DNA of 64,000 nucleotides from an uncultured Pelagibacteraceae bacterium (GTDB lineage: Bacteria; Pseudomonadota; Alphaproteobacteria; Pelagibacterales; Pelagibacteraceae). The translations under genes were made by a program, and so were the position numbers. This document shows, piece after piece, positions 7,435 through 11,360 of this stretch. The stretch spans positions 124,001 through 188,000 of the forward strand of contig CACBYG010000001.1 of NCBI GenBank assembly GCA_902543535.1. Direction: 5' to 3'. How positions within the stretch are numbered: position 1 is the first letter of the stretch; every line of letters starts with the position of its first letter. A model generated the notes under the pieces. That model made no database searches and was not told where the DNA came from. It saw only the letters and a list, made by a program, of their open reading frames with translations.

Positions 7435-8019
7435 ATGAAAAAAATTCTTATAATTTTGTTACTCTTTAATCTAAATTTTGAACAGGTAGCTTCTATTGAG
7501 CCTGAGATATTTGTTCAGTCTACTGTTAATAGAGCATCTCAAATTTTATCTAAAAGTATTTCAAAAGAAGAGAAGATGAATCAATTAAAATCTATTGCTA
7601 AAGATACAGTTGATATAAGAGGTGTAGGTTTTTATTCTTTAGGATCAGTTAGAAAAAATTTAAATAATAATCAAAAAAAAAAATATTTAGAGTTATTTGA
7701 AAATTATTTTTTAAAAAGTTTTTCTAGTAGATTATCTGAATATACTAACCCAAAAATTGAAGTACAGGGGAAAGAAATTTTGAATGAAAACTATACAATC
7801 GTAAATAGTTTATTGGTTGGAACATCAGAAAGACCTGAAATAAAAATTGATTGGAGAGTTTATACTAAAAATCCAGATAACCCACTGATAAGAGATTTAA
7901 TTATTGAAGGATTAAGTTTAGCAAGAACTCAAAAAGAGGAATTCTCATCAATATTAAATTCTAATGATGGAGATATAAATGCTTTATTCAAAACGTTAGA
8001 GGAATTTTCTAAAAATTAA
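7435..8019 (+). CDS. mlaC: MlaC/Ttg2D family phospholipid-binding protein
   Basis: Secreted ~194 aa protein with MlaC-like sequence, directly following mlaA. Confidence 0.8.
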   Translation: MKKILIILLLFNLNFEQVASIEPEIFVQSTVNRASQILSKSISKEEKMNQLKSIAKDTVDIRGVGFYSLGSVRKNLNNNQKKKYLELFENYFLKSFSSRLSEYTNPKIEVQGKEILNENYTIVNSLLVGTSERPEIKIDWRVYTKNPDNPLIRDLIIEGLSLARTQKEEFSSILNSNDGDINALFKTLEEFSKN

Positions 8020-8025
8020 TTTATT

Positions 8026-8102
8026 TGGTGGGCCCGCCAGGACTCGAACCTGGGACCAATACATTATGAGTGTACTGCTCTAACCAACTGAGCTACAGGC
8101 CC
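8026..8102 (-). tRNA. tRNA with CAT anticodon (tRNA-Ile2 precursor or elongator tRNA-Met)
   Basis: GGGCCTGTAGCTCAGTTGGTTAGAGCAGTACACTCATAATGTATTGGTCCCAGGTTCGAGTCCTGGCGGGCCCACCA; full cloverleaf, CCA encoded. Confidence 0.95.
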
Positions 8103-8160: not shown

Positions 8161-8235
8161 TGGTGGGCCGTGTTGGTTACGCTCCAACTACCCCTGCAAT
8201 GTCAATGCAGTACTCTACTATTGAGCTAACGGCCC
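8161..8235 (-). tRNA. tRNA-Val(GAC) with atypical T- and D-loops
   Basis: GGGCCGT TA GCTC AATAGTA GAGT A CTGCA TTGACAT TGCAG GGGTA GTTGG AGCGTAA CCAAC ACGGCCC ACCA; all four stems pair, anticodon GAC. Confidence 0.88.
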
Positions 8236-8299: not shown

Positions 8300-9520
8300 T
8301 TATTTTAAAAAACGTAAATCCTTAAAATTATCAATAAAATTAGGAATTTTTTCAAAAGTTCTGTAGTGCGGAATAGATCCCAAGTCTTCATGATATACTG
8401 CCTTGGGAGTCCAGCTCAGAGAAATAATAAAAAAAAGAATGAAAAAATAATAATTTTGTTTAATTAAAAAATTTTGCTCTAATTTTTTGATTCTTTCATA
8501 GTCAATTACTATAAAATCAAGATAATTTAATCCAAAAAATAAAATAAATAAATTTGTGTAACACAAATGAAAGTATCTACCAGTATCGACTGATATAAAA
8601 AATATTAATAAGTTTATTATTGATAAAATTAATAAAATATAAATTATAGGTATATTTGCAATAATTGGGTTACATTTATTTTTGTTAAATTTTGTGAAAT
8701 ATGAAAAAATAAATAATGGACCAAATCCAAATACAAATATGAATGTGTTTCTTGCAAAATGTTGAGGTGACCAGCCTATCTCACCAATATATGTTTTAAT
8801 TTCATTAACGACATAATGTGCTTGAAATCCACAAACTATATTAAATTCTCTTAATAAAGATTCACACATAATTTCTTTATCAATATTCGTAAACTTATTT
8901 AAAAAAAGAAATATAGAAAAAATAAATAATAAAAAAATAGATCCTAATAAAATAAAATTATAATTTTTTTTATTTTTTTTATTCATTACAAACAAAAAAA
9001 ATAAAAAATTTAAAAAGTAAAATACTAATATTTCGTGAGTAAGTAATACAAATATTGATCCGATAAAAAAAATTGTAATTTTTTCTATTAAATTCCTAGC
9101 TAAAAAGATAACGGAGATTAAAAGTAAATTTACTAGAATTTCTTTCCTGCCAATTGCTTCTAATTCCGATAATGGAAAAAATAAAAATAATGGAGAAAAA
9201 ACTACAAGCAAACTTAATTTAGAATATTTAATATTTTTAATTAAATGATAAATCATATAATAAAAGGTCCCATATAAAACTATCTGTAAAATTAATAAAC
9301 TAAATTTGAAATTTATTTCTAAGAGATTGCTTAATCTATAAAAAATTTCACCCAATAATCCTCTTCTTACAAAACCACCTTGATATGTAATTATCCACTC
9401 AGACATAGCATTATATGATTGAACACTATTTAGACTTGATAAGTAAAATGTAATTAATAAGAAAAGAATTATTAGATATAATTTGAAAATTTTATGGAAA
9501 TTTAAGGTATGGCTGTCCAT
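8300..9520 (-). CDS. Polytopic membrane protein, possibly polysaccharide polymerase-like
   Basis: 406 aa, many predicted TM segments, motif QGGFVRRGLLGEIFYRL. Confidence 0.6.
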   Translation of the reverse strand: MDSHTLNFHKIFKLYLIILFLLITFYLSSLNSVQSYNAMSEWIITYQGGFVRRGLLGEIFYRLSNLLEINFKFSLLILQIVLYGTFYYMIYHLIKNIKYSKLSLLVVFSPLFLFFPLSELEAIGRKEILVNLLLISVIFLARNLIEKITIFFIGSIFVLLTHEILVFYFLNFLFFLFVMNKKNKKNYNFILLGSIFLLFIFSIFLFLNKFTNIDKEIMCESLLREFNIVCGFQAHYVVNEIKTYIGEIGWSPQHFARNTFIFVFGFGPLFIFSYFTKFNKNKCNPIIANIPIIYILLILSIINLLIFFISVDTGRYFHLCYTNLFILFFGLNYLDFIVIDYERIKKLEQNFLIKQNYYFFILFFIISLSWTPKAVYHEDLGSIPHYRTFEKIPNFIDNFKDLRFLK

Positions 9521-9536
9521 TTACCTATTAGAGTCT

Positions 9537-11360
9537 TTAACTCTCTAAAAAGCTTTTTAATTGTTTAGATCTGCTTGGATGTTTAAGCTTTCTTAAAGCT
9601 TTAGCTTCTATCTGACGAATTCTTTCTCTAGTCACTGAAAATTGTAAACCAACCTCTTCCAAAGTATGATCGGTATTCATGCCTACTCCGAACCTCATTC
9701 TTAATACTCTTTCTTCTCTTGGAGTTAAAGTAGATAGAATTTTTGTAGTTGCTTCCCCTAAATTTGATTTAATTGCTTGTTCTAGTGGTGCCAATGCTTT
9801 TGTATCCTCAATAAAATCTCCTAAGCTACTATCTTCTTCATCACCAACTGGTTTTTCTAAAGAGACTGGCTCTTTTGAAATTTTTAAAACTTTTCTCACT
9901 TTGTCCAATGGCATTCTTAATTTTTGGGCCAATTCTTCAGGTGTAGCTTCTCGACCAAATTCACTCAAAATTAATCTTTGAGTTCTTACAATTTTATTAA
10001 TTGTTTCTATCATGTGAACTGGAATTCGAATTGTTCTAGCTTGATCTGCAATTGATCTGGTTATAGCTTGTCTAATCCACCAAGTGGCATAGGTTGAAAA
10101 TTTGTACCCTCTTCTATATTCGAATTTATCTACTGCTTTCATTAAACCTATATTACCCTCCTGAATTAAATCTAAAAACTGAAGTCCTCTATTTGTGTAT
10201 TTTTTAGCGATTGAAATAACTAATCTTAAATTAGCTTCAACCATCTCCTTTTTTGCAATTCTCGACTCTTTTTCACCTTTTTGGACTCTGCTAACAAGTT
10301 TTTTAAAATCTGTCACTGAAATCCCAAGCTTATGACTAATCTCAATTAATCTTTCTCTAATATTTTTAAATTCCTCTTTGTTTTTTGAAAAAAACTGTTT
10401 CCATATATTGTTGGTATCTAAAAATTTTTTTAGGTTTGGATTAATTTCATTTCCAATATAAAATTTAATAAATTCATTCCTTGGAATTTTATGATCCATT
10501 GCAAGCCTCAAAAGATTTCCTTCAAGTGAAACAATTTTTTTATTTTCAATATAATGTTTCTGGACAAGTTCTTCTAAAACTGATGGAGATAATTGAAGTG
10601 ATTTAATATTTTCCAAAATATCATTAACAATTTTATCGTGGCCTTTTTCCTTTGCTGGCGAAAAGTTTTGTGAATTTAAAATACAGTCTAATTTTTCTTT
10701 TTGGTATTTTATTAATTTTGTGTACTCTTTAGTTAGTGTATTGACAGTTTTTAAAACTTTAGGCTTAATTTCAGTTTCCATTGCAGCAAGAGTGGGATTA
10801 AAGTCTTCATCCTCATCAGATGATCCTTCTTCCTTATCGGTTTCTCCAGCATTTTTTTGTTTTGCACTTGGCCCAGTTGACTCATCTTCCATATAATTTG
10901 TGTCAATATCTATAATTTCTCTTACTAAGATTTCATCTTTTTGTAATTTCTCATTCCATTCAAAAAATTGTTGGGCTGTAATTGGACTTTGAGAAAGTGC
11001 AATTAACATCACATCTTTTCCTGCCTCAATTCTTTTTGCGATTGCAATCTCACCTTCTCTAGAAAGAAGTTCCACTCCACCCATCTCACGTAAATACATT
11101 CTGATAGGGTCATCACTTTTTTCAATTGTTTTGCCTTCCTCCTTATTTGAATTTTCTTTTTTTCTTAAGACTTTAAAATCAGATTTTTTTTCAACTAAGG
11201 AAACATTTTCATCTAAAATATGTATGAACGCTTGAGCCAAGTTATCGTCAGATAAATTTCTTTTTCCAAGAGACTTGCTCAATTCCTCATAGGTTATAAA
11301 ACCTCTATGAGTTCCACGACCCATTAATCTAGCAAATGATTTTGTTATAATTCTTTCCAC
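9537..11360 (-). CDS. rpoD: RNA polymerase sigma factor RpoD (sigma70)
   Basis: Regions 2-4: [58 protein letters not shown]-terminal HTH. Confidence 0.98.

Follow-up and report, generated by a model that had tools for sequence, protein, structure and literature searches.

A valine tRNA gene with altered loops

The window, i.e. the whole 64,000-nucleotide stretch of DNA analysed here, carries a gene for tRNA-Val(GAC) located between rpoD and a tRNA gene with the anticodon CAT, the latter lying beside mlaC/mlaA. The features of this locus are the following:

8161..8235, minus strand: tRNA-Val(GAC) gene with a rewritten elbow, CCA encoded (ARAGORN, Rfam)
8216..8222, minus strand: D-loop AATAGTA (A14 A15 U16 A18 G19 U20 A21), with A18, always accompanied by G55, in place of the near-universal G18
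8177..8183, minus strand: T-loop AGCGTAA (A54 G55 C56 G57 U58 A59 A60), replacing TTCRANN; C56 is kept, and U54, U55 and A58 are replaced
8201..8203, minus strand: anticodon GAC, decoding GUU and GUC (ARAGORN)
8026..8102, minus strand: canonical tRNA (CAT), a tRNA-Met adjoining tRNA-Val and serving as conservation control (ARAGORN, Rfam)
9537..11360, minus strand: rpoD, the locus-defining conserved neighbour in Pelagibacter and source of the species tree (Pfam sigma-70 domains, synteny)
7435..8019, plus strand: mlaC, the neighbour beyond the two tRNAs (Pfam MlaC, synteny)

The gap between tRNA-Val and rpoD, which differs among relatives, contains an ORF for a 406-residue membrane-protein-like product devoid of Pfam matches (8300-9520, minus strand).

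ARAGORN called tRNA-Val(gac) at 8161-8235 on the minus strand, and Rfam RF00005 aligned with it from end to end with a score of 53.6 bits, compared with a gathering cut-off of 29. Both programs thus agree with a preliminary description of this DNA, which had proposed a tRNA-Val(GAC) with intact stems, an encoded CCA and those two loops. From 5' to 3', the RNA consists of the acceptor strand GGGCCGT, TA, the D-arm GCTC/GAGT enclosing AATAGTA, a single A, the anticodon arm CTGCA/TGCAG with GAC in the 7-base loop TTGACAT, the variable loop GGGTA, the T-arm GTTGG/CCAAC enclosing AGCGTAA, the second acceptor strand ACGGCCC, the discriminator A73 and CCA. Its arm lengths are standard (7-4-5-5, with loops of 7), and no arm is odd or missing.

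The contacts G18-Psi55, U54-A58 and G19-C56 of the tRNA elbow are taught as near-universal. Here, G19-C56 is present, A18/G55 is found instead of G18-U55(Psi), and A54/U58 is found instead of the reverse-Hoogsteen pair U54-A58. The tRNA shares the cloverleaf, arm lengths, anticodon, A73, CCA, G19-C56 and U8-A14 with canonical tRNA-Val (GAC). In contrast, the canonical form has G18/U55 and U54/A58, and the Pelagibacter tRNA has A18/G55, A54/U58, A60 and complementary bases at 16 and 59. The initial mapping of the elbow (A18/G55, G19-C56 kept, A54/T58, A15/A48) holds, except that A48 should not be counted as part of the loop change, since A48 is also the usual base in orthologs that occupy this locus with a canonical elbow.

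The rewritten elbow is limited to this tRNA. In the source assembly, which is ~80% complete and in which 22 tRNAs were found, all 21 others have TTCRANN T-loops, which extends to the genome the earlier remark that the other tRNAs of the window have canonical loops. The only other valine tRNA found, a search also suggested at the outset along with the covariance score, is tRNA-Val(TAC). It adjoins tRNA-Asp without a GAC gene, in contrast with a locus of genus g3 (L089) that groups Val(TAC), Val(GAC) and Asp. The 44 long ORFs of the window contain 471 GUU, 65 GUC, 285 GUA and 71 GUG codons; those cognate to the GAC anticodon, GUU and GUC, represent 536 of the 892 valine codons (60%).

Conservation and selection

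BLAST searches retrieved the exact 75-mer in 39 of the 61 Pelagibacter (SAR11) species genomes of the genus. A 29-base tRNA-Val pattern was present in 170 of 297 genomes of the order (103 of the 150 good-quality ones), all of them from the window's genus bar one of genus g4, and it also matched numerous records under the names Pelagibacteraceae and Candidatus Pelagibacter, which places the genome in SAR11. Given these occurrences of the exact gene and of the pattern, the rewritten elbow is not a chance finding. One g4 genome has a g1-type rewritten tRNA-Val with an initiator-like tRNA-Met alongside, near the end of a contig (G155:C26 418-446, L059), which points to transfer or contamination. 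Another genome harbours the rewritten gene twice (G077:C1 141265-141293 and 397221-397249). Matches of the pattern outside Pelagibacteraceae (Saprospiraceae, Flammeovirgaceae, Dehalococcoidia, Brasilonema, Mucilaginibacter and Paludibacteraceae) were taken as chance, as ARAGORN found no tRNA at the six loci checked, and two of five class-level matches (L275, L279) are not tRNAs either.

Among 108 loci holding both tRNAs, one identical tRNA-Val sequence occurs in 95 and one identical tRNA-Met in 104, for a median rpoD nucleotide identity of 82%; the Val loci were retrieved partly by pattern, so that these identity counts are biased upward and the BLAST figure of 39/61 is less biased. The forms that share the rewritten loops differ from one another in their acceptor, anticodon and T-stems, with acceptor strands including GGGCCGT, GGGACTG, GGGAGCT, GGACCGT, GGGGGTT and GGAACTG, and these stems are always paired. 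Across 18 distinct rewritten sequences and 24 pairs, all 432 stem and proposed interloop cells (100%) hold standard pairs, and 13 of the 24 pairs show two-sided changes. The near-invariance of the gene and its compensated stems indicate that tRNA-Val(GAC) with its rewritten elbow is a conserved RNA under selection and not a decaying one.

The gene was not found in five genomes that are 92-99% complete, three of genus g1 (G117, G185 and G190) and two of genus g4 (G091 and G166). In G185, the position after rpoD where tRNA-Val would be expected is taken by a glycosyltransferase-like gene. The loss is possibly real in these genomes and covered by tRNA-Val(TAC), in which case some lineages may be able to do without the GAC gene. 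No canonical GAC pattern was found in G012 and G073, both complete genomes, and the rewritten tRNA is apparently the working and only tRNA-Val(GAC) of Pelagibacter.

Two elbow types at the same locus

Canonical elbows also occur at the rpoD-Val-Met-mlaC locus, with nine confirmed cases among 399 genomes and others from further searches; a tenth match in that set (L220) is not a tRNA. On a tree of rpoD sequences (132 rows), the elbow state changes nine times on the best topology, and well-supported branches force at least five independent switches. The states cluster no more than shuffled labels do, which fits with frequent recombination, and the D-loop and T-loop states agree in all 132 rows. 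Two copies are near-isogenic, one rewritten (L222) and one canonical (L263). They have the acceptor strand GGGCCTT and the anticodon stem TTCGC in common, and the elbow is their main difference.

In genera g5 and g7 and for the g1 intermediate described below, tRNA-Val usually lies among genes for glycosyltransferases, O-antigen ligases, epimerases and sugar-nucleotidyltransferases. Rewritten or intermediate genes were observed inside variable surface-polysaccharide regions at L264, L267, L268, L270, L273 and L274. This setting may help tRNA-Val genes to move between strains. The canonical g5 GAC gene had no match in the g5 genomes with the rewritten gene and was readily matched in 10 other g5 genomes, indicating that the rewritten gene replaces the canonical one in g5.

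Coupled changes in the D- and T-loops

We assembled 40 distinct tRNA-Val(GAC) sequences without using the letters of the D-loop for their retrieval; an unbiased search with a covariance model contributed three of them (L221, L222 and L231). Twenty-one have A18/G55, 19 have G18/U55 and none is mixed, and G19 and C56 are invariant in all 40. In two loci of genus g1 (L231/L267) and one of g7 (L264), A18/G55 coexists with the usual U54/A58, in the form of the T-loop TGCAATC combined with the D-loop ATTAGTA or AGTAGTA. These intermediates imply that 18/55 is able to change without 54/58, and the comparison of loop types indicates that the elbow was altered in steps, 18/55 before 54/58 and 16/59.

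Complementarity between positions 16 and 59 extends to all forms with an AGCRTWA T-loop; of the 18 distinct rewritten sequences, 12 have UA and 6 have AU. The full form has U16/A59 in genus g1 and A16/U59 in g4, g5 and g7; this swap might reflect one or two events and is therefore weak evidence by itself. A54 and U58 are constant throughout the rewritten class, which leaves a 54/58 pairing unproven. The combinations 16-59, 18-58 and 19-56 are all complementary in 18/18 rewritten sequences, with variation at 16-59 only. Overall, the alignments show positions 18 and 55 to switch together, and likewise 16 and 59 within the full form.

Two other contacts were considered and abandoned. A GNR(N)A-type fold of G55-C56-G57-U58-A59 was ruled out because genera g4, g5 and g7 have U at position 59, and a U20-G55 wobble as the key contact is disfavoured by the A20 of L057/L073.

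The same 18/55 switch in phage tRNAs

Scanning of IMG/VR with the D-arm led to phage tRNA arrays. Among the distinct tRNAs of the contigs retrieved, 74 combine GG in the D-loop with TTC in the T-loop, 13 combine AG with TGC and one combines AG with AGC; three further entries of apparent type AG/TTC were parsing errors, the GG being located further along. The AG/AGC case is a tRNA-Ile (L306) with the D-loop AAAAGTA and the T-loop AGCGTTA, the only phage tRNA seen with this full form. A two-by-two test was performed on IMG/VR with matched patterns for positions 18 and 55. A18+G55 was found in at least 120 contigs, G18+U55 in at least 120, A18+U55 in three and G18+G55 in none. As a sequence-based test of the 18/55 combination in phages, we regard this result as decisive, and the switch appears to be common in phage tRNAs. 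The A18+G55 set comprises at least 58 distinct cores. At least 49 distinct tRNAs of this type were called by ARAGORN, with 13 anticodons, including those for Gly, Met, Phe, Thr, Asn, Val, Ala, Ile, Pro and Gln.

The phage A18/G55 tRNAs, whose T-loops are of the TGCRANN type, thus share A18 with G55 and the conserved G19-C56 with tRNA-Val(GAC), and their D-arm TAGCTCANNAGTAGAGY is very similar. In contrast with the A54/U58 of the Pelagibacter tRNA, they keep U54-A58, and no general 16-59 complementarity was found in this class among the matches listed. One 275-kb phage contig (L313, 14531-16414) has many array tRNAs with A18/G55, as if most of its set had switched. The annotated phage Rctr197k is similar to L313, but its own tRNAs are canonical. 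Four contigs (L308, L309, L310 and L318) harbour a third class of T-loop, GGCAGTA or GGCAGAA (G54 G55 C56 A57 G58), found in phage tRNA-Thr and tRNA-His together with AATAGTA or AAAAGTA as the D-loop; these tRNAs form clean cloverleafs and are missed by ARAGORN. Although phages contain the A18/G55 class, no match for a direct donor of the Pelagibacter valine gene was obtained in IMG/VR or INPHARED.

Interpretation of the altered elbow

We propose, with a probability of about 0.7, that the gene codes for a working Pelagibacter tRNA-Val(GAC) in which other contacts than usual between the D-loop and the T-loop hold the elbow together. This corresponds to the first of two possibilities raised in the preliminary description, that of a real tRNA with non-standard elbow contacts, and conservation, compensated stems, coupled loop changes and the lack of a detected second GAC gene all speak in its favour. 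In the proposed arrangement, the outer G19-C56 pair would be kept. The ribosome and RNase P recognise the flat surface formed by this pair (PMC4810234), and its fixation fits well with that role. The inner G18-Psi55 contact would be replaced by A18-G55, the T-loop pair U54-A58 would be inverted to A54/U58, and bases 16 and 59, now complementary, would probably pair across the loops. The covariation suggests that bases 18 and 55, and also 16 and 59, touch, and a pairing geometry can be proposed for them on that basis; A18 could also pair with U58 instead of G55. The tRNA is presumed to be charged and to translate normally, and the T54 and Psi55 modifications are most likely absent, as the target uridines are missing. 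Fast translocation has been cited as dependent on the 18-55 pair (Pan et al. 2006, in PMC4810234).

Many phage tRNAs appear to use the same substitute contact as the Pelagibacter tRNA-Val, so that a second natural solution to the near-universal elbow seems to exist. We give a somewhat better than even chance to the broader view that A18-G55 is this solution, present in many phage tRNAs of varied amino-acid specificity and fixed in the principal tRNA for valine of Pelagibacter, where it would have been elaborated with an inverted 54/58 and an added 16-59 pair and would be passed from strain to strain by recombination, the two loops moving as one indivisible unit.

Related arrangements are known. 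Suppressor tRNAs with a D-loop/T-loop double helix have been selected in the laboratory (Kotlova et al. 2007, cited in PMC4191394). Going by the title of that work, the likeness lies in loops capable of several Watson-Crick interloop pairs, but those tRNAs were selected from randomised libraries and the Pelagibacter tRNA-Val is natural, chromosomal and fixed. An additional 16:59 interloop contact is described for tRNA-Sec (PMC7609411), which, unlike tRNA-Val(GAC), keeps the canonical elbow, to which C16:C59 or U16:U59 is added, and whose D-stem and variable arm are long. The absence of G18G19 or of the TPsiC sequence is shared with tRNA-Pyl and metazoan mitochondrial tRNAs, in which, however, arms are altered in length or missing; the arms of tRNA-Val(GAC) are standard, and both G19 and C56 are retained. 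Keyword searches of reviews on T-loops and unusual tRNAs (PMC7912444, PMC7609411) gave no A18-G55 elbow, and neither 'A18-G55' nor 'A18 G55' was found in a search of 5.39 million openly available papers. In a study of SAR11 tRNAs (PMC3937112), sequences with unusual secondary structures were removed, and valine goes unmentioned.

A possible but more doubtful reading is a short double helix of Watson-Crick pairs between the loops (16-59, 18-58 and 19-56, with purine 57 stacked between), the T-loop having given up its classical fold. The three pairs can form in 18/18 rewritten sequences, with 16-59 swapping from UA to AU, the phage tRNA-Ile of L306 fits as well, and 16-59 complementarity is specific to the rewritten class, since it is not general in the phage tRNAs with A18/G55 and U54/A58. 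However, such a helix leaves unexplained both the G at position 55 and the TGCRANN intermediate and phage forms, in which A18 goes with G55 and position 58 is still A, and a single informative pair is its sole basis. The A18-G55 contact and the interloop helix may be successive stages.

Far less probable is a real tRNA specialised outside ordinary translation, like the amino-acid donors to cell-wall or lipid enzymes. An altered elbow could shift binding to the elongation factor or the ribosome, and the gene lies among surface-polysaccharide genes in g5 and g7, but no other GAC tRNA was detected in complete genomes, its product matches 60% of the valine codons, and canonical copies take its place at the same locus in relatives. 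Still less credible is the second possibility raised initially, a tRNA in early decay with tRNA-Val(TAC) reading its codons. The latter tRNA is present and some genomes have no detected GAC tRNA, yet the gene varies hardly more than that of the adjacent tRNA-Met, against a diverging rpoD, and near-invariance, compensated stems and coupled loops extend over hundreds of genomes. Finally, most genomes are single-cell or metagenome assemblies, but an assembly or sequencing artefact, for which all relatives should have been canonical, can be practically discounted given its presence in hundreds of independent assemblies, identical copies in 39 genus genomes and 150 loci, including single-contig complete genomes, systematic variants in other genera and a syntenic comparison in which canonical copies are a small minority.

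Implications for Pelagibacter and tRNA biology

A rewritten tRNA called by ARAGORN (L273 1484-1558) was not reported by the default Rfam search, implying that annotation can miss such genes; default searches with ARAGORN as well as Rfam can overlook altered-elbow tRNAs. Our reading predicts a bacterial elongator tRNA without a T54 or Psi55 site. Covariation and stepwise intermediates make the true requirements of the elbow directly testable with natural isogenic pairs such as L222/L263. Pelagibacter are among the most abundant bacteria of the ocean. In this very abundant group, the commonest valine codon, GUU, would be read by a tRNA with an altered elbow, and two of the three near-universal elbow contacts would have been replaced in a heavily used chromosomal tRNA.
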